Of a stretch of 64,000 nucleotides of DNA, positions 6,783 to 47,268 are shown piece by piece; within the stretch, counting starts at the first letter, position 1, and the number at the start of each line of letters is the position of its first letter. The position numbers were made by a program, and so were the translations under genes. The DNA comes from Phenylobacterium sp. (GTDB lineage: Bacteria > Pseudomonadota > Alphaproteobacteria > Caulobacterales > Caulobacteraceae), in the NCBI GenBank assembly GCA_020402745.1, contig JADBYZ010000004.1, positions 1-64,000 of the forward strand, given 5' to 3'. The notes below the pieces were generated by a model. That model did no database searches. It was not told the DNA's origin and worked only from the letters and a program-made list of their open reading frames with translations.

Positions 6783-8117
6783 TTGCCCGACGTCACGCCT
6801 GACGCCCCGCCCGCCCGCCGGATTGTCGTGATCGGAGCCGGCGTCGCCGGACTGTCCGCCGCCTGGCGCCTTGGCGAGGTGGCGGACGTCACGGTCCTGG
6901 AGACGGAGGGCCGGCTCGGCGGCCACGCCAACACCCTCGACGCGCCGGGGCCGGGCGGCGACACGCCCGTGGACACCGGCTTCATCGTCTACAACGAGGA
7001 CAACTACCCGAACTTCACCGCCCTGCTCGACCATCTCGGAGTGGCCAGCCAGCCGGCGGACATGGGCCTGTCAGTCTCCCTGGACGGGGGTGACCTGGAG
7101 TATTCCTCCAACGCCCTCATCGCCCAGAAGCGCAACCTGCTCCGCCCGCGCTTCTGGCGCATGATCGCCGACATCCTGCGTTTCTACAGGCGGGCGCCGG
7201 ATGACCTTCGGCGGCTGGAGGGCTCGGGGACCTCCCTCGACGCCTATCTTGAGCATGGACGCTTTGGCCCCGCCTTCCGGGACGACCACCTCCTGCCCAT
7301 GGCGGCGGCCATCTGGTCGACCCCCCTGGACCGCATCGGCGACTATCCCGCCGCCTCCCTGATCCGCTTCTTCCTCAACCACGGGATGATGAGCGTCTCC
7401 GGCCGGGGACTCTGGCGGACGGTGACGGGCGGCAGCCGGTCCTATGTCCGCAAGCTGTTGGAGGCCGCCCGAGCCGACTTCCGCACCGGTGTCCGTGTGG
7501 CGGGCCTGTCCCGAACGGAGACCGGCGTTCGGGTCCGGCTGGCGGATGGCGCGACCCTGGACTTCGACGAAGCGGTTCTGGCCGTGCACGGGGATACGGC
7601 CCTGGCCCTGCTCGAGGACCCGACGCCGGAGGAGTCCGCCCTGCTCGGCGCGTTCCGGTACGCGAAGAACCGGGTGATGCTGCACCGCGATCCCGCCCTG
7701 ATGCCCCGCCGGCGGTCGGCCTGGACCGCCTGGAACCACATTGGCCGCCGTGACAGCCCCGGTGAGGGCCCGGTGACCTACTGGATGACCTACCTGCAGA
7801 GCCTCAAGGGTGCGGGTGACCTCTTTGTGACCCTCAATCCTCCGGAGGACTTCCGGCCCGAGACCCTGATCGCCGAGATCCCCTACGAGCATCCCCTCTA
7901 CGACGCCGCCGCCATCGAGGCGCAGCGGCGCCTCTGGTCTCTGCAGGGCGTGCGGCGGACCTGGTTCTGCGGCTCCTACTTCGGACACGGCTTCCACGAG
8001 GATGCGCTGCAGTCGGGCCTGGCCGCAGCCGAAGCGATGGGGGCCCCGCGCCGGCCATGGACCGTGGCCGACGAGTCTGGCCGAATCCATCTGCCCGTCT
8101 CGGCGGCGGGAGCCTGA
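6783..8117 (+). CDS. FAD-dependent oxidoreductase (amine oxidase-like), DUF1365-associated
   Basis: A 444-residue flavoprotein. After a short proline-rich start, the dinucleotide fold RIVVIGAGVAGLSAAWRLGE near residues 14-33 is followed by the acidic strand end VTVLE and the GGHANT segment seen in amine-oxidase/phytoene-desaturase-type proteins. The C-terminus has FCGSYFGHGFHEDALQSGL, a flavin-contact region typical of this subgroup. The TTG start at 6783 has an AGGAG site 8 bases upstream. The next gene is DUF1365, five bases on. Homologues in Rhodobacter are paired with DUF1365 and linked to unusual (methylated or furan) fatty acids and singlet-oxygen response. I infer action on membrane acyl chains. 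No cyclopropane-type methyltransferase lies in this window. Confidence 0.85.
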   Translation: MPDVTPDAPPARRIVVIGAGVAGLSAAWRLGEVADVTVLETEGRLGGHANTLDAPGPGGDTPVDTGFIVYNEDNYPNFTALLDHLGVASQPADMGLSVSLDGGDLEYSSNALIAQKRNLLRPRFWRMIADILRFYRRAPDDLRRLEGSGTSLDAYLEHGRFGPAFRDDHLLPMAAAIWSTPLDRIGDYPAASLIRFFLNHGMMSVSGRGLWRTVTGGSRSYVRKLLEAARADFRTGVRVAGLSRTETGVRVRLADGATLDFDEAVLAVHGDTALALLEDPTPEESALLGAFRYAKNRVMLHRDPALMPRRRSAWTAWNHIGRRDSPGEGPVTYWMTYLQSLKGAGDLFVTLNPPEDFRPETLIAEIPYEHPLYDAAAIEAQRRLWSLQGVRRTWFCGSYFGHGFHEDALQSGLAAAEAMGAPRRPWTVADESGRIHLPVSAAGA

Positions 8118-8122
8118 ACGCC

Positions 8123-8917
8123 GTGACCGCCTCAGGCATCTACGCCGGGGTCGTCACCCACGCCCGGCTGCGGCCGCGGCCGCACAGGCTGCGGTATCGC
8201 ATCTTCATGCTGCTGCTGGACCTGGACGAGCTGGAGAGCCTCGACGCCCGGCTGAAGCGTTTCGCCGTCGGCCGTTTCGCCCTGACCGGCTTTTCGCCCA
8301 GGGACCATCTGGACCCTACCGGCCGCGACCTTCGGGCCCAGGCGGAGGCGATACTCGCGGACGCCGGCTTAGAGGGCGGAGGCCCCATCCGCCTGCTGGC
8401 CATGCCGAGGATCCTGGGCGGGGTCTTCAATCCCCTCACCGTCTGGTTCCTGCACCGGCGGGACGGTGCGCTCTCGGCGGTCCTTTACGAGGTCCGCAAC
8501 ACCTTCGGCGAAAGCCACAGCTACCTCATCCCCGCCGCGCCGCAGGGCGGGAACGTCCTGACCCAATCCATCGACAAGGGCTTCTATGTCTCGCCCTTCA
8601 TGGACATGGACCTGACCTACGCCTTCCGGATTCAGCCGCCCGGCGAACGGGTCGCAGTGTCCATCGACGTGTCCGACGCCGAGGGGCGCATCCTCACCGC
8701 CGCCTTCGCCGGAGAGCGGCGCGAGATGACCGACGCCAACCTGCTGGCGGTCTGGCTCGAGCGCCCGATGACCAGCCTTGGCGTCCTGGCCGCCATCCAT
8801 TGGGAGGCCCTCTGGATGTGGCTGAAGGGCGAACCGATCCGCCAGCGCCCGCCGCCGCCGCAGGCGCCCGTGACCCTGGCGCCCACCGCTGTCCGTGAGT
8901 TCCCCGGGCCGCATTGA
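8123..8917 (+). CDS. DUF1365 family protein
   Basis: About 264 residues starting at GTG 8123, which gives the family N-terminus SGIYAGVVTHARLRPRPHRL. Further family features are YRIFMLLLDLDEL, the ILGGVFNPLTVWF segment, and KGFYVSPFMDMDLTYAFRI. A longer frame from 8057 is antifamily sequence inside the preceding gene. DUF1365 proteins occur with FAD-dependent oxidoreductases and cyclopropane-fatty-acid-synthase-like methyltransferases and are thought to act on membrane fatty acids. The gene follows the flavoprotein by five bases and overlaps the possible longer start of DedA, so transcriptional coupling is likely. It appears soluble or peripheral, with no signal peptide. Confidence 0.88.
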   Translation: MTASGIYAGVVTHARLRPRPHRLRYRIFMLLLDLDELESLDARLKRFAVGRFALTGFSPRDHLDPTGRDLRAQAEAILADAGLEGGGPIRLLAMPRILGGVFNPLTVWFLHRRDGALSAVLYEVRNTFGESHSYLIPAAPQGGNVLTQSIDKGFYVSPFMDMDLTYAFRIQPPGERVAVSIDVSDAEGRILTAAFAGERREMTDANLLAVWLERPMTSLGVLAAIHWEALWMWLKGEPIRQRPPPPQAPVTLAPTAVREFPGPH

Positions 8918-39437: not shown

Positions 39438-40319
39438 ATGCTCAGCTGGCGGATCGGCGAGGTGACGGTCACCCGGGTGGTCGAGATGGAGATGCCGGTG
39501 GCGTACAACCCCCGGCGGGCCTTTCTCGCCGAGGCGACGCCGGAGGCCCTGCGCGAAATCCCCTGGCTCTATCCGCACTATGTGACCCCGGAAGGCCACC
39601 TGCGCCTGTCCATCCACGCCCTGCTCGTCGAGGCGCCCGGCCTGCGACTGGTGGTCGACACCTGCATCGGGAATGACCGGCCGCGCAGCCTGGTCGGCGG
39701 CCAATCCCTGTCCACGGATTTCATGGGCTCCTTTGAGGCGACCGGCTGGACCCGCGAGAGCGTCAACGCCGTCGTCTGCACCCACCTGCACGTCGACCAT
39801 GTCGGCTGGAATACGATGCTCGAGGGCGGTCGTTGGGTCCCGACCTTCCCCAAGGCCCGCTACCTGATCGGTCGCCGGGAATACGATCACTGGAGCTCCG
39901 ATAACGACGAAGAGCGGCAGGTCATGCTTTCGGACTCCATCCGCCCGGTCTTCGAGGCCGGCCTGGTGGACCTGGTGGAGATGGACCACGTCATCTCGCC
40001 GGAGGTCCGGCTGGTCCCGACCCCCGGCCACACGCCGGGCCATGTCAGCGTCCGGATCGAGTCCGCCGGTGAGGTGGGGCTGATCACCGGGGACATGGTC
40101 CACCATCCCTGCCAGCTGGCCCACCCGGAGTGGTCCCCACCCTTCGACAGCGATCCGGCGGCCTCGGCCGTGATGCGGCGGGAGGTCTTCGAGGGCGCAG
40201 CTGACCAGCCCATCCTCGTGATCGGCACCCACTTCGCCGCCCCGACCGCCGGCCATGTGCGCCGGGACGGGGCCGCCTTTCGCTTTGACGGGGCGACTTC
40301 CGAATCGCCAGAGGGCTGA
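39438..40319 (+). CDS. MBL-fold metallo-hydrolase
   Basis: A 293-residue metallo-beta-lactamase-fold protein. Zinc motifs are THLHVDHVGW (HxHxDH), HTPGHVSVRI (His), a later Asp in LITGDMVHHP and His in IGTHFAAPTAGH. Family members hydrolyse lactones, thioesters or phosphate esters; the layout is like N-acyl homoserine lactonases and related aryl or lactone hydrolases. The ATG at 39438 follows a GGGGGGCGG site. Lactonase or thioesterase function next to a KorAB operon is not explained. Confidence 0.88.
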   Translation: MLSWRIGEVTVTRVVEMEMPVAYNPRRAFLAEATPEALREIPWLYPHYVTPEGHLRLSIHALLVEAPGLRLVVDTCIGNDRPRSLVGGQSLSTDFMGSFEATGWTRESVNAVVCTHLHVDHVGWNTMLEGGRWVPTFPKARYLIGRREYDHWSSDNDEERQVMLSDSIRPVFEAGLVDLVEMDHVISPEVRLVPTPGHTPGHVSVRIESAGEVGLITGDMVHHPCQLAHPEWSPPFDSDPAASAVMRREVFEGAADQPILVIGTHFAAPTAGHVRRDGAAFRFDGATSESPEG

Positions 40320-41465: not shown

Positions 41466-42161
41466 TCAGACGTCGGACTCCCGGCGGGCGAAGGGCAGGG
41501 CGAGGATGTCCGCCGAGGTGAAGACCGGATTCCCCGGATAGAGGGCGGCGTAGACCCGTTCCACGAAGGCGAAGTCGCCGGGCAGGTCCACCGTCCAGCG
41601 GAATTCGCTGCGGTCCGGGGCCTGCACGAGGTCGCCCCGCCGGAACGGCGCTTCCGTCCGGTAGAGCCAGGGCGTGACGTGTTCCCGGTCGTAGTCGGAG
41701 GTCGCCTCGGCCGCAGCCCGGCGCAGGGCCTCCACCGTGAAGACCTCGACGTCCAGCCCGCGGGGGTAGGTCCGGACCTGGCCATTGGAGGCGTAGTCCA
41801 GGTCGCCCTCGCGCCTGAAAGCAATGCAGGCGTCAATGACGTCCGGGTCGGCGAGGGGGCAGTCGGCGGTCAGGCGGACCATATCCCCGGTGAGGTCCAG
41901 GACCTCGATGACCTTCAGGAACCGCCCAAGAACATCGTCCAGAGGACCGCGCGCGACCTCAACCCCCGCTTCGGAGAGGGTCTTGGCCAGGATGTCGTCC
42001 GATGGCGCCGCGCTGGTGGCCACCACGATCCGCTCAAGCCGGCGGCATCGGCGCAGGCGCTCGATCTGCCGCAGGATCATCGGCTGCCCCAGCAGGGGCT
42101 TCAGGACCTTGCCGGGCAGGCGGCTGGAGCTCATCCGCGCCTGAAGAACCGCCGTGGCCAT
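41466..42161 (-). CDS. cytidylyltransferase-domain protein, PseF/SpsF-like
   Basis: A 231-residue nucleotidyltransferase. The N-terminal nucleotide motif is TAVLQARMSSSRLPGKVLKP, followed by LLGQPMILRQIERLRRC and the metal-binding LTADCPLADPDVIDA. CMP-nonulosonate synthetases (PseF) and SpsF proteins share this pattern. Facing the PseI-like gene, it could activate pseudaminic acid with CTP. In Caulobacter relatives this step supports flagellin glycosylation. SpsF-like proteins are also known, so the PseF label is an inference from context. Confidence 0.82.
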   Translation of the reverse strand: MATAVLQARMSSSRLPGKVLKPLLGQPMILRQIERLRRCRRLERIVVATSAAPSDDILAKTLSEAGVEVARGPLDDVLGRFLKVIEVLDLTGDMVRLTADCPLADPDVIDACIAFRREGDLDYASNGQVRTYPRGLDVEVFTVEALRRAAAEATSDYDREHVTPWLYRTEAPFRRGDLVQAPDRSEFRWTVDLPGDFAFVERVYAALYPGNPVFTSADILALPFARRESDV

Positions 42162-42286
42162 TCCGGCCTCCCCTGAACATCGCCTGTCTTCAATAGACCG
42201 GCCGCGGCGGGGCGCAAGCCGCAGCCCCGCGACCCGTCGGGCGACTCGGGTCTAGACTGTCCCGGCGAGGGAAGGGGATGGGACCC

Positions 42287-42952
42287 ATGCTGGTGCTTCT
42301 GGGCGTGCTGCTGGTGGTGGCGGGCTTCGCCGTCGGCCTGAACCCCCTGCTGGTCGTTCTGGCTTCCGCCCTGGCCACGGGCCTGGCGGCCGGTCTTTCG
42401 CCGGTGGAGGTGCTTGCGGCCTTCGGCAAGGCCTTCAACGAGAACCGCTATGTCAGCGCCGCCTGGCTGATCCTGCCGGTGATCGGCGTGCTGGAGCGGT
42501 CCGGCCTCCAGGAGGCGGCCCGCGGCCTGATCGCCCGGCTCCGGTCGGTGACCTTTGCGCGGCTGATGCTCGCCTATCTGCTCTTCCGGCAGGTGACCGC
42601 CGCCCTGGGCCTGATCTCCATCGCCGGCCAGACCCAGACCATCCGCCCGATCATCGCCCCCATGGCCGAAGCCGCCCGGGCCTCCGAGGCGGGGGTCGAG
42701 GCCCTGGACTCAAGTGAGGCCCAGAAGGTGCGGGCCTTCGCCGCCGGCACCGACAATATCGGCCTCTTCTTCGGCGAGGACATCTTCCTGGCCATTGGCT
42801 CGATCCTCCTGATGGTCGGCTTCCTGGAGCAGAACGGGATCACGGTGGAGCCCCTGCATCTGTCGGTCTGGGCCATTCCCACCGCCATCGCCGCCTTTCT
42901 GGTGCACGGCGTCCGCATCCTGATGTTCGGCCGAAGGAGGCCGGGGTCATGA
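42287..42952 (+). CDS. DUF969 family membrane protein
   Basis: About 221 residues with five to six transmembrane stretches, beginning MLVLLGVLLVVAGFAVGLNP. Typical DUF969 segments are FNENRYVSAAWLILPVIGVL, LAYLLFRQVTAALGLISIAG and FAAGTDNIGLFFGEDIFLAI. The ATG at 42287 matches the family start and has AGGGG nine bases upstream; 42278 is a possible alternative. DUF969 proteins occur next to DUF979, and the pair is thought to form a two-component transporter. Overlap with the next gene by ATGA fixes coupling. Confidence 0.9.
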   Translation: MLVLLGVLLVVAGFAVGLNPLLVVLASALATGLAAGLSPVEVLAAFGKAFNENRYVSAAWLILPVIGVLERSGLQEAARGLIARLRSVTFARLMLAYLLFRQVTAALGLISIAGQTQTIRPIIAPMAEAARASEAGVEALDSSEAQKVRAFAAGTDNIGLFFGEDIFLAIGSILLMVGFLEQNGITVEPLHLSVWAIPTAIAAFLVHGVRILMFGRRRPGS

Positions 42953-43908
42953 TCGGCCTGACCCAGGTCTACGCCCTCGCGGGCCTCGTCTTCGCCGGCT
43001 TCGCTGTCCTCAGCCTGAGGGATACGGCCAATCCCCGCCGGCTTCGCAACGCCCTGTTCTGGGGCCTCTTCGCCCTCACCTTCCTGGCGGGAGACCGCCT
43101 GGGCGACCTGGGCAACGGCGTCCTCGTGCTGGTCATGGCCCTGACCGCCGCCCTGGGCCTCGGGCGCAGCGGGTCCGGGGCGGCGGACGCCGAGGCCCGC
43201 GCCGCCTCGGCCCGGACCCATGGCCTGAGGCTCTTCTGGCCCGCCCTGCTGATCCCGGTCCTGGTCCTCGCGGGAAGCCTCGGCGTGCGCCATGGCGGGC
43301 CGGCCCTGGCCGCCCTGGTGGACCCGAAACAGGCGACCCTGGTCTCGCTGAGTTTCGCCGCTGTGGTCGTCGCGGCCCTGTCGGTCCGCCTGTTCCGCCA
43401 GCCGGTCCTGTCGCCCCTGACAGAGGGCCTTCGCCTGGCCGACACGGTGGGCTGGATGGCCCTCCTGCCCCAGATGCTGGCGGCCCTGGGCGCCGTCTTC
43501 GCCCTGGCCGGGGTGGGCGCCGTGGTGGGCGAGACCGTCACCCGGGTCTTTTCCATGGACACGCGCCTGGCCGCGGTGGCGGTCTACTGCCTGGGCATGG
43601 CGGGCTTCACCGTCCTGATGGGCAACGCCTTCGCCGCCTTCCCCGTCATGACCGCCGGGGTGGCCCTGCCCATCCTGGTCAAGGTCTACGGGGGGGATCC
43701 GGCGGCCATCTGCGCCATCGGCATGCTGTCGGGTTTCTGCGGCACCCTGCTGACGCCCCTGGCCGCCAACTTCAACCTTGCCCCCGCGGCCCTCCTTGAC
43801 CTGGACGACCGTTACGCCGTTATCCGGGCCCAGGCGCCCACGGCGCTCGTCCTCCTCGCCGTCAACACGGTCCTGATGCATGTCCTCGCCTTCCCGGCTC
43901 ACCCCTGA
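42949..43908 (+). CDS. DUF979 family membrane protein
   Basis: A 319-residue polytopic protein with about ten hydrophobic segments, starting MIGLTQVYALAGLVFAGFAV. Conserved DUF979 features are LTFLAGDRLGDLGNGVLVLV, MALLPQMLAALGAVFALAGV and IGMLSGFCGTLLTPLAANFN. The pair DUF969/DUF979 probably forms a carrier for a small metabolite; 5-oxoproline and amino-acid-derived compounds have been proposed from gene context, not from this sequence. It overlaps the following DUF2891-Sua5 gene by 29 bases, so expression is tightly linked. Confidence 0.9.
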   Translation: MIGLTQVYALAGLVFAGFAVLSLRDTANPRRLRNALFWGLFALTFLAGDRLGDLGNGVLVLVMALTAALGLGRSGSGAADAEARAASARTHGLRLFWPALLIPVLVLAGSLGVRHGGPALAALVDPKQATLVSLSFAAVVVAALSVRLFRQPVLSPLTEGLRLADTVGWMALLPQMLAALGAVFALAGVGAVVGETVTRVFSMDTRLAAVAVYCLGMAGFTVLMGNAFAAFPVMTAGVALPILVKVYGGDPAAICAIGMLSGFCGTLLTPLAANFNLAPAALLDLDDRYAVIRAQAPTALVLLAVNTVLMHVLAFPAHP

Positions 43909-45811
43909 GATCGCCGCCGGCTTCGCCCGGATCGCCCTGGGGCATGTCACCCGGCCCTGGCCCTACAAGCTGGACCAGGTGCTGACCTCAGAGGCGGACC
44001 TGGCGGAACCCCGCCGCCTCCATCCCATCTTCTTCGGCAGCTTCGACTGGCATTCCTGCGTGCATGGCTACTGGCTGCTGGCCGCTGTCCGCCGCCGCTT
44101 CCCGGACCATCCCGTCGCTGAGGAGATCGACGCACGCTTTGCCGAGGCCTTCACAGAGGCGAACGTGGAGGGCGAGCGGGCCTTCCTGCGGCGGCCCCTG
44201 TCGCGGGGCTTCGAGCGGCCCTACGGCTGGGGCTGGCTCCTGAAGTTGCAGGCCGAGCTGAGGGGTGTCCCCGGCCCCTGGGCGGAGCGGCTGGCACCCC
44301 TGGCCGCCGACTTCGCCGACCGGTTCCGCGCCCACCTGCCGCTGGCGGCCTATCCGGTGCGCACCGGCGTGCATTCCTCCACCGCCTTCGCTCTCGCCCT
44401 GGCCCTCGACTACGCCCGGGTCGCCGGGGACCCGGACCTGGAGGACCTCCTGAAGTCCAAGGCCCTGTCCTGGTATGGCCAGGACCGGGACTGCCAGGCC
44501 TGGGAGCCCTCAGGCGAGGACTTCCTCTCGCCGGCCCTGATGGAGGCCGAGTGCCTGCGCCGGGTCCTGCCGCCCTCGGACTTCCGCGCCTGGTTCGCCG
44601 GCTTCCTGCCCCGCGCCGCCGCAGGCGAGCCCGCCAGCCTCTTCACCCCCGCCAGCGTCAGCGACCGCAGCGATGGCAAGATCGCCCACCTCGATGGCCT
44701 CAACCTCAGCCGAGCCTGGTGCTGGCGCAACCTCGCCGGCGCCCTCGACCCCGCCGACCCCGCCGCCGGGGCGGCCCTCGCCGCCGCCGAGCTCCATCTG
44801 GAGGCCAGCCTGCCGCATGTGGCGGGCGACTATATGGGCGAGCACTGGCTGGCCAGCTTCGCCCTCCTGGCCCTCACGGCGGGGGAGGAAGCGCAGGGCC
44901 CCGTGACCGCGGCAACTTCGGCCCTGCGGGAGGGACGGCTGGTCCTTCTGCCGACCGAGACGGTCTACGGACTGGCGGCGGACGCTGGGAACCCGCGCGC
45001 CGTGGCGGCCGTCTACGCCGCCAAGGGCCGCCCGGCCTTCAACCCCCTGATCGCCCACGTCGCCAGCGTGGAGGCCGCACGGGAGATCGCGGTCCTCAGC
45101 CCCGAGGCTGAGATCCTGGCCGCCGCCTTCTGGCCGGGTCCCCTGACCCTGGTCCTGCCGGTCCAGCCCGGCGGGCGGGTCTGCGACCTGGCCCGGGCGG
45201 GGCTGGACACGGTCGCCGTGCGGGTTCCCGCCCATCCCCTGGCGCGCGCCGTCCTTGAGGCCTTCGGCGGGCCGGTGGCGGCCCCTTCGGCCAACCGGTC
45301 CGGTCGGCCCAGCCCCACCAACTTCGCCGCAGCGATGGCGGAGACGGGAGAGGAGGCGGCCGTGGCCCTGGATGGCGGCCCCTGTGAGGTCGGGCTGGAG
45401 TCCACCGTGGTGTCCCTGCTGGACCAGCCCCGCCTGCTGCGTCCTGGCCGGGTGACGCGGGAGGAGGTTGAGGCCCTGGTCGGGCCCCTGGCCGAGGCCG
45501 AGGCCGATGCACGCCGCTCGCCGGGCCGGCTGACCCGCCATTACGCTCCGGAAGCGCCCGTCCGTCTGGAGGCTGAAGGGGCCCGGCCCGGCGAGATCTT
45601 CCTGGCCTTCGGGCCGGCTCCGGAGGGCGCAGAGGTGCTGAACCTCAGCCCCGCGGGCGACCTTGTCGAGGCGGCGGCCAACCTCTTCAGCTTCCTGCGG
45701 GAGGCCGACGGGCGCAGGCCTGCGGGAATCGCCGTCGCGCCCATCCCCGAGACGGGCCTGGGCGAGGCGATCAACGACCGCCTTCGCCGGGCGGCGGGCG
45801 CCATCGGCTGA
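43880..45811 (+). CDS. DUF2891 domain fused to Sua5/TsaC threonylcarbamoyl-AMP synthase
   Basis: A single 643-codon frame. Residues 1 to about 335 are DUF2891, a helical-toroid-like protein (PIFFGSFDWHSCVHGYWLLA, YGWGWLLKLQAEL, HSSTAFALALALDYARVAGD, AGDYMGEHWLASFALLALTA). Residues about 342-643 are Sua5/TsaC: GRLVLLPTETVYGLAADAGN, KGRPAFNPLIAH, GPLTLVLPVQPG, AAPSANRSGRPSPTNFAAAM and the Sua5 tail SPGRLTRHYAPEAPV. Sua5 makes threonylcarbamoyl-AMP for the t6A37 modification of ANN-decoding tRNAs. These are separate proteins elsewhere. An internal GTG at 44903, with a GGGGGAGG tract from 44881 and a TGA in the neighbouring frame at 44904-44906, suggests an ancestral two-gene junction. Confidence 0.85.
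   Translation: MSSPSRLTPEIAAGFARIALGHVTRPWPYKLDQVLTSEADLAEPRRLHPIFFGSFDWHSCVHGYWLLAAVRRRFPDHPVAEEIDARFAEAFTEANVEGERAFLRRPLSRGFERPYGWGWLLKLQAELRGVPGPWAERLAPLAADFADRFRAHLPLAAYPVRTGVHSSTAFALALALDYARVAGDPDLEDLLKSKALSWYGQDRDCQAWEPSGEDFLSPALMEAECLRRVLPPSDFRAWFAGFLPRAAAGEPASLFTPASVSDRSDGKIAHLDGLNLSRAWCWRNLAGALDPADPAAGAALAAAELHLEASLPHVAGDYMGEHWLASFALLALTAGEEAQGPVTAATSALREGRLVLLPTETVYGLAADAGNPRAVAAVYAAKGRPAFNPLIAHVASVEAAREIAVLSPEAEILAAAFWPGPLTLVLPVQPGGRVCDLARAGLDTVAVRVPAHPLARAVLEAFGGPVAAPSANRSGRPSPTNFAAAMAETGEEAAVALDGGPCEVGLESTVVSLLDQPRLLRPGRVTREEVEALVGPLAEAEADARRSPGRLTRHYAPEAPVRLEAEGARPGEIFLAFGPAPEGAEVLNLSPAGDLVEAAANLFSFLREADGRRPAGIAVAPIPETGLGEAINDRLRRAAGAIG
44881..44906 (+). other. domain junction with internal ribosome site and GTGA
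   Basis: GGGGGAGGAAG at 44881-44891 is a strong purine tract, 11 bases or more before GTG 44903, which would start a 302-residue Sua5 alone (VTAATSALREGRL). The overlapping TGA at 44904-44906 is one frame off the DUF2891 reading frame. Removing one base upstream, for example from the G or C runs, would end DUF2891 exactly there in a GTGA overlap, a junction type used elsewhere in this genome (22256). Confidence 0.5.
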
Positions 45812-45858: not shown

Positions 45859-47268
45859 ATGATCCGCCCTCCCTCCGACGACCTGGTGAACCGCCTGAAG
45901 GCCCTCGTCGGGCCTGAGGGCTGGACGGACGACCCGGACATCCTTGCGCCCCGTCTCGTGGAGTGGCGAGACCGCTGGAGCGGGCGTACGCCCCTGATGC
46001 TATCCCCGGCCTCCACCGAGGAAACGGCCGCCATTGTGGGCCTCTGCGCGGCGGCGGGCGCCCCCCTGACCGTCCAGGGCGGCAATACGGGCCTTGTCGG
46101 CGGCCAGATCCCACAGGGCGAGATCCTGCTGTCCACCCGGCGGATGCGGGCCATCCGGGACGTGGACCCGGTGGACGACGTCCTTGTGGCAGAGGCGGGC
46201 GTGACCCTGGCCGAGGTCCAGGCCGCCGCGGCGGTGGCGGGGCGACGGTTCCCCCTGAGCCTGGCCTCAGAGGGGACGGCGACCCTGGGCGGCGTGGTCT
46301 CCACCAATGCCGGCGGCGTGGCGGTTCTCCGCTTCGGGACGGCCCGCGACCTGGTGCTTGGCCTGGAGGCCGTGCTGCCGAACGGGGAGATCTGGCGCGG
46401 GCTTCGGCGGCTGCGAAAGGACAACACCGGCTACGACCTCAGGGGCCTGCTGTCCGGGGCCGAGGGCACCCTGGGGGTGATCACGGCGGCCAGCGTCAAG
46501 CTCTTCCCCCAGCCCGCCGGCCGGGCCGTCGCCATGGTCGGCCTGGAGAGCCCCCAGGCGGCGCTCGACCTGCTCACCCGCGCCCGCCGCGCCGTCGATG
46601 CGGGCCTGGAGGCCTTCGAGCTCATGGCCCGCCAGGGCGTCGTCTTCGCCCTCAGGAACATTCCCGGCCAGAGGGATCCCCTGACGACAGACCCGCCCTG
46701 GCGGGTCCTCCTGGAAATCGCCTCTCCCGACCTGGACGGGGCTGGCCGGCGGATGGAGTCCCTGCTGGCCGAGGCCTGCGAGCAGGGCCTCGCCGGCGAG
46801 GCGGTGATCGCCGCGAGCGAGGCCCAGGCCGCCGCCTTCTGGTCCCTGCGCGAGAACCAGTCCGCCGCCCAGAAGCCCGAGGGCGCGACCTGGAAGCACG
46901 ACATTTCGGTGCCGGTCAGCCAGGTCCCCCGCTTCATCCATGAAGCCTCCGAAGCCATGGCGGCCTTTTCGCCGGGCTGCCGGATCAGCGCCTTCGGCCA
47001 TGTGGGCGACGGCAACATCCACTTCGACGTCCTGCGCCCCGAGGGTGGGGACGACGCGCCCCACCTGGTCCAACGCGCCGAGGGACAGGCCCGCGTCCAC
47101 GACATCGCCATCGCCCTGGGCGGATCGGTTTCGGCCGAGCACGGCCTGGGCGTCATGAAGGCGGAGGAGGCCCGGCGCCAGAAGGATCCGGCCGAGGTCG
47201 CCCTCCTGACCACAATCCGCGCCGCCCTCGATCCGGGCCGCATCCTGAATCCACGCGTGCTATTCTGA
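45859..47268 (+). CDS. FAD-binding oxidase, GlcD/D-lactate or D-2-hydroxyglutarate dehydrogenase type
   Basis: A 469-residue flavoprotein. The FAD-binding PCMH fold has LTVQGGNTGLVGGQIPQGEI, the substrate-side loop SEGTATLGGVVSTNAGGVAV and GLRRLRKDNTGYDLRGLLSG. The C-terminal domain shows GHVGDGNIHFDVLRPEG and SVSAEHGLGVMK, the metal-binding histidines of 2-hydroxyacid dehydrogenases. It should oxidise a D-2-hydroxyacid, passing electrons to quinone or ETF. Start ATG 45859 has only a weak ribosome site and lies about 47 bp after the Sua5 stop, so it may be co-transcribed. Confidence 0.9.
   Translation: MIRPPSDDLVNRLKALVGPEGWTDDPDILAPRLVEWRDRWSGRTPLMLSPASTEETAAIVGLCAAAGAPLTVQGGNTGLVGGQIPQGEILLSTRRMRAIRDVDPVDDVLVAEAGVTLAEVQAAAAVAGRRFPLSLASEGTATLGGVVSTNAGGVAVLRFGTARDLVLGLEAVLPNGEIWRGLRRLRKDNTGYDLRGLLSGAEGTLGVITAASVKLFPQPAGRAVAMVGLESPQAALDLLTRARRAVDAGLEAFELMARQGVVFALRNIPGQRDPLTTDPPWRVLLEIASPDLDGAGRRMESLLAEACEQGLAGEAVIAASEAQAAAFWSLRENQSAAQKPEGATWKHDISVPVSQVPRFIHEASEAMAAFSPGCRISAFGHVGDGNIHFDVLRPEGGDDAPHLVQRAEGQARVHDIAIALGGSVSAEHGLGVMKAEEARRQKDPAEVALLTTIRAALDPGRILNPRVLF

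Follow-up and report, generated by a model that had tools for sequence, protein, structure and literature searches.

We found that a Phenylobacterium genome carries DUF2891 and the tRNA-modification enzyme Sua5 as one uninterrupted chain, and we consider it probable that this is a real two-part protein, born by the loss of two intervening genes and tolerated as a fusion. Under this reading, loss of a TPR/sulfotransferase-like gene and a TonB receptor gene would have brought the ends of DUF2891 and Sua5 together, and these ends would have met in frame twice (once in the window, meaning here the whole stretch of 64,000 nucleotides that was analysed, and once in the ancestor of three other species) and as a GTGA overlap at least once. 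The window protein would then join an N-terminal DUF2891 from a probable 5-oxoproline uptake operon to a complete C-terminal Sua5 (threonylcarbamoyl-AMP synthase). We expect that the fused chain is made and remains whole, that its halves work independently on a loose linker, and that operon expression now governs the supply of Sua5. The fusion would thus be tolerated, not selected for joint function, and in the window some free Sua5 might be made from an internal GTG. The features of the locus are as follows.

42278..42952, forward strand: DUF969 gene, 224 aa, putative 5-oxoproline transporter subunit (PF06149, 1.1e-81; available text of PMC12795558 and PMC11467057)
42949..43908, forward strand: DUF979 gene, 319 aa, putative partner transporter subunit (PF06166, 4.1e-107)
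43880..43908, forward strand: overlap of the DUF979 3' end and the DUF2891 5' end, 29 bases (ORF list)
43880..45811, forward strand: single-chain DUF2891-Sua5 gene (ORF list, translation, Pfam)
43922..44872, forward strand: DUF2891 domain, residues 15-331, homologue of Campylobacter jejuni CJ0554 (Pfam)
44873..44920, forward strand: linker, residues 332-347 (16 residues), between the Pfam domains
44881..44891, forward strand: Shine-Dalgarno-like purine tract GGGGGAGGAAG (sequence)
44903..44905, forward strand: in-frame GTG, residue 342, possible internal start for free Sua5 (sequence)
44921..45448, forward strand: TsaC-like catalytic domain, residues 348-523, with K382-x-R384 and S470-x-N472 (Pfam)
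45452..45799, forward strand: SUA5 domain match, residues 525-640, with loop P548-G549 and H554-Y555 (Pfam)
45859..47268, forward strand: FAD-linked oxidase gene, downstream of Sua5 (ORF list, Pfam)

Our data confirm that the reading frame is real as assembled. It comprises 643 codons from ATG to TGA with zero internal stops, and the ORF list, the translation and the Pfam domains all bear out the original prediction of a single frame running from DUF2891 into Sua5. The DUF2891 match (PF11199, E 7.9e-129) scores 429.8 bits against a cut-off of 25 and covers profile positions 3-325 of 325; Sua5_yciO_yrdC (PF01300, E 4.5e-55) and Sua5_C (PF03481, E 2.5e-22) match residues 348-523 and 525-640, respectively, each as a complete domain, and the protein also scores above the cut-off of NCBIfam TIGR00057. 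All residues that are at least 97% conserved among 89 DUF2891 homologues are retained in the DUF2891 half, as are those equally conserved among 16 Sua5 homologues in the Sua5 half. The fold of CJ0554 was recovered for DUF2891 by way of the fold of the orthologue in G015, a close relative. When AlphaFold was applied to the entire chain, the Sua5 half was poorly modelled. The window protein shares the TsaC-like and SUA5 domains and the catalytic and loop motifs of L-threonylcarbamoyladenylate synthases such as 6f87, which we take to be the Sua5 of P. abyssi, but differs from them in bearing a whole DUF2891 protein at its N-terminus. Conversely, CJ0554 (PDB 8ieu/8iev) is a free-standing DUF2891 protein. 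When aligned with 6f87, the Sua5 half contains KxR, SxN, the T in PTETVYG, S508 and R521, following the motif list in the available text of PMC10321239. Its interdomain loop carries both PG and HY, with the Met after PG replaced by Arg550.

A full-length, stop-free DUF2891-Sua5 match was present in 4 of 101 genomes of the genus: that of the window (G000) and those of three other species (G007, G085 and G005). The original prediction had proposed a search of related genomes for such single chains, and because three other species carry one, the fusion is more than chance. Among the matches listed for 390 genomes of the family (including the 101), no single chain was found beyond the same four; in samples of 398 genomes of the order and 385 of the class, the window alone spans both parts among the matches listed. 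These family, order and class searches scored up to three candidates per genome, and all four lists, that of the genus included, cover the best-scoring matches, with a spanning match expected at the top. Among the best 80 loci of GTDB 220 contigs (L031-L110), L031 and L032 hold one open frame from DUF2891 into Sua5, with the junctions of G005 and G007, respectively, while L092 stops at the end of DUF2891 and L094 is without DUF2891. Where relatives of the window carry a name, it is mostly Phenylobacterium. Both genes could be read on one contig, among the matches listed, in 14 other genomes of the genus; 13 of these have DUF2891 and Sua5 at a large distance from each other and G001 alone has them within 10 kb, and the fusion therefore looks like the result of local gene loss.

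The locus was fetched from 12 genomes (11 close relatives and the outgroup G001), giving, with the window, 12 close genomes that fall into three states. In five of them (G015, G047, G081, G016 and G088) the TPR/sulfotransferase-like and TonB receptor genes lie between DUF2891 and Sua5. Both intervening genes are absent from the others, in which the DUF2891 stop either overlaps the Sua5 start as GTGA (G045, G092 and G046) or DUF2891 and Sua5 are fused (G000, G007, G085 and G005). Since the outgroup has the order DUF2891, TPR, TonB, approximately 3.9 kb and then Sua5, the state with both genes in between is the older one. By eye, Sua5 in the GTGA genomes begins with codons (GTGAGC) similar to those that open the TPR gene. 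Judged by best E-value matches, orthologues of the TPR and TonB genes were not found among the matches listed for the seven genomes that lack them at the locus, where the best matches reached at most 31% (TPR) and 37% (TonB) identity compared to 83-100% and 89-100% in the five genomes that retain them; several relatives are incomplete assemblies (82-100%) in which a gene missing elsewhere could be unsequenced, and the place of the locus itself is covered. Assemblies of this group are small (2.3-2.9 Mb). Comparison of these loci points to at least three losses of the TPR and TonB genes within the group, three being a minimum and not a count because the locus recombines. As an observation in its own right, the TPR/sulfotransferase-like and TonB-receptor genes at positions 7352-11802 of L114, with their orthologues, are jointly absent from 7 of the 12 close genomes.

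The AU test rejects a joint origin of the four fusions for all five genes tested (p of 6.4e-77 for rpoB, 9.0e-4 for DUF2891, 1.3e-9 for Sua5, 2.1e-59 for DUF979 and 1.4e-12 for the FAD oxidase). Because monophyly of the fused genomes is rejected, our data show that the fusion arose at least twice, in the window and in the ancestor of G007, G085 and G005. In the trees G000 clusters with G047 and G015, both unfused (ultrafast bootstrap of 98 in the DUF2891 tree, where G092 joins them, 98 for Sua5 and 99 for FAD oxidase plus YaaA). A second cluster, supported at 100 for both DUF2891 and rpoB, holds G005, G007 and G085, with G088, which is unfused, next to or within it. G088 was excluded from the Sua5 tree, since its contig includes just 171 bases of that gene. 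In the rpoB tree G000 falls with G047 and G092 (100), and G015 is placed elsewhere with weak support. G092 is itself a mosaic: its DUF2891 (L120, 6602-7606) groups near G047 and its Sua5 (7645-8544) is 98.4% identical to that of G045, which places a recombination break near the junction since the two halves group with different genomes. The GTGA allele may have spread via recombination. Single-gene trees need care here because the locus is mosaic and rpoB sets G015 away from G000, with weak support.

We found that the linkers of G007, G085 and G005 align to the 3' end of TonB plus the 5' region of Sua5 from G081 with scores of 84, 84 and 72, each equalled by none of 300 shuffles. The TonB-derived stretch uses a frame other than that of the receptor, and the linker comprises 29 codons with no indel and no stop. 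These alignments indicate that the linker in this group is derived from the 3' end of the lost TonB gene, in another frame. A single ancient fusion, into which the two genes were afterwards inserted in G047, G015, G081, G016 and G088, would need one fusion event only; it is nonetheless exceedingly improbable, given the AU test, the presence of both genes in between in the outgroup, and the tail of the TonB gene within this linker. A Sua5 start codon at -14 from residue 350 is present in all five genomes that retain the intervening genes and in none of the G007, G085 and G005 group. The upstream GTG remaining in the scanned stretch lies at -18 in G007 and G085, with weak anti-Shine-Dalgarno pairing (-2.5 kcal/mol), and at -28 in G005 (-5.5 kcal/mol); the next in-frame start is at least 44 codons past residue 350. 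Free Sua5 is thus unlikely in this group. Each of the 12 close genomes was found to hold a single PF01300 place, which in the four fused genomes is the fused frame. Because the native start is gone and each genome has one PF01300 place, the fused chain is probably the sole source of Sua5 in G007, G085 and G005.

The window itself differs at the junction. The original prediction held that an internal GTG with an upstream purine tract could yield free Sua5, and both elements are present in the window, 14 bases separating the paired core from the GTG. The GTG is in frame and GGGAGG pairs to the anti-Shine-Dalgarno with -9.8 kcal/mol, which speaks for two products, namely the long chain plus free Sua5 made from the GTG or released by cutting of the linker. 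We regard two products as somewhat doubtful, since the 14-base spacing is long, the free form would start 8 codons before residue 350 (codon -8) compared to 14 in the five genomes with intervening genes, and the G007, G085 and G005 group is without a comparable start.

A warning that one base could separate the two genes proved exact: the +1-frame TGA overlaps the GTG at 44903, so that a shift before this position yields a GTGA pair. The fusion seen in the window might be an artefact or a recent frameshift, in which such a pair was joined by a one-base error or a real change; a single assembly was seen for the window species, and G045, G092 and G046 carry GTGA pairs. Such pairs in relatives had been named as evidence against the fusion. 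They do exist, but they do not refute it, because the single frame of G007, G085 and G005 originated separately, leaves no good Sua5 start and has no GTGA. Moreover, by hand count the shifted frame would extend the DUF2891 tail by 3 residues beyond the six that all eight unfused close relatives have. As a rough indel control, rough because some frames are not genes, 48 open frames were picked from G015, of which 30 matched the window above 70% identity; 27 of these 30 matched in a single frame, and the other three were a gene frame that has an upstream extension in G015 and two frames antisense to genes. No clear indel error was found near the junction in this comparison of G015 open frames with the window. 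From the window alone a one-base error or real one-base change is possible, yet as an account of the finding we hold it to be quite unlikely, and the general finding is independent of an error in the window frame because G007, G085 and G005 share the architecture by a different route. GTGA- or ATGA-coupled gene pairs are the sister state of the fusion in the three GTGA genomes, and differ from it in giving two proteins that are linked by translation only.

We found that both halves are under purifying selection in the G007, G085 and G005 group. The dN/dS of DUF2891 is 0.13-0.15 in the three fused pairs, within the 0.10-0.17 range of four unfused pairs, while that of Sua5 is 0.10-0.17 in the fused pairs, slightly above the 0.06-0.14 of the unfused pairs. 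The linker evolves fast (dN/dS of 0.68, G005 versus G007 and G085), and we see the simplest arrangement as two constrained partners joined by a loose linker. DUF2891 can be missing, because some genus genomes, including 99-100% complete ones (G012, for example), yielded one match only, at a score of the kind that Sua5 typically gives. This would suit a decaying DUF2891 half that merely supplies a start for Sua5, but the constraint on DUF2891 in the fused pairs and the retention of all strongly conserved residues in the window protein make such a passenger very unlikely.

TsaD scores above the cut-off in all four fused genomes and is located elsewhere in the genome. A sole PF01300 copy together with TsaD suggests that the Sua5 half synthesises threonylcarbamoyl-AMP (TC-AMP). 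PDB 8ide is presumably TsaN of Pandoravirus, which has TsaC- and TsaD-like domains in one chain and thus likewise holds a TC-AMP synthase domain within a longer fused chain. The partner in TsaN is the enzyme that acts next in the same chemistry (available text of PMC11077089), whereas the partner in the window is unrelated; a TsaN-type pathway fusion was rejected, the partner being DUF2891 and not TsaD/Kae1. HypF and TobZ also join a TsaC-like domain to another domain (available text of PMC10321239), but with other chemistry and other partners. Depletion of tsaC is lethal in bacteria as summarised in the available text of PMC9654439.

A fusion selected for function, in which t6A synthesis is tied to nitrogen state or to the uptake of 5-oxoproline (glutamate-family), would fit two separate events, one of them kept in three species, with both halves constrained. 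We judge it distinctly unlikely: loss of two genes accounts for both events, approximately one third of random junctions fall in frame, three other genomes ended with GTGA, of the 14 genomes from elsewhere in the genus with both genes read on one contig (matches listed), G001 alone has them within 10 kb, and the linker evolves fast. A joint function of DUF2891 and Sua5 is possible but speculative. Unlikely, too, is a stronger version of events in which convergent loss twice made Sua5 a C-terminal half, its start was erased once, and t6A supply became obligatorily coupled, in its amount, to the nutrient-uptake operon, with this coupling kept by selection.

The gene order in the window is DUF969, DUF979 and DUF2891-Sua5. 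The adjacent DUF969 and DUF979 genes overlap as ATGA, and the predicted overlap of DUF979 with the fused frame was borne out and measures 29 bases. The FAD-linked oxidase holds the same position in 11 of the 12 fetched relatives, these being the 11 whose stretch reaches there. PxpA (PF03746) was found in none of the 12 close genomes and Hydantoinase_B (PF02538) in all 12, the copies of G088 and G085 being split or partial. In several of these the Hydantoinase_B protein sits in a frame of approximately 1,200 codons, which we take to be, perhaps, an OPLAH-type enzyme. In the available text of PMC12795558, a C. jejuni mutant of cj0552-4 (DUF969, DUF979 and DUF2891) lost the use of 5-oxoproline. 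By analogy, 5-oxoproline is a likelier substrate of the DUF969/DUF979 unit than threonine or bicarbonate, and the operon of the window is a probable 5-oxoproline uptake operon. The suggestion that the fusion ties the transporter to threonine and bicarbonate found no support, as the C. jejuni evidence in that text points to 5-oxoproline and DUF2891 and Sua5 are mostly far apart. Upstream in the window, a cytidylyltransferase gene (41466-42161, reverse strand) adjoins a NeuB-like gene and shows 76-85% nucleotide identity to 11 close relatives; because it is more diverged than its neighbours, these data suggest that it was replaced through recombination. Positions 39438-40319 encode a metallo-beta-lactamase-fold protein like quorum-quenching lactonases, scoring far under their curated cut-offs.

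Gene fusions are often taken as a sign of joint function, and DUF2891-Sua5 warns against reading function from fusion alone. Its surroundings can be traced gene by gene: the same two genes would have been lost repeatedly, leaving ends that met as GTGA or in frame, and in one lineage the tail of a lost gene appears to have become the linker in another frame. The fused species offer a natural test of an essential enzyme tolerating a large N-terminal partner. For annotation, Sua5 of the fused species is not a separate gene.
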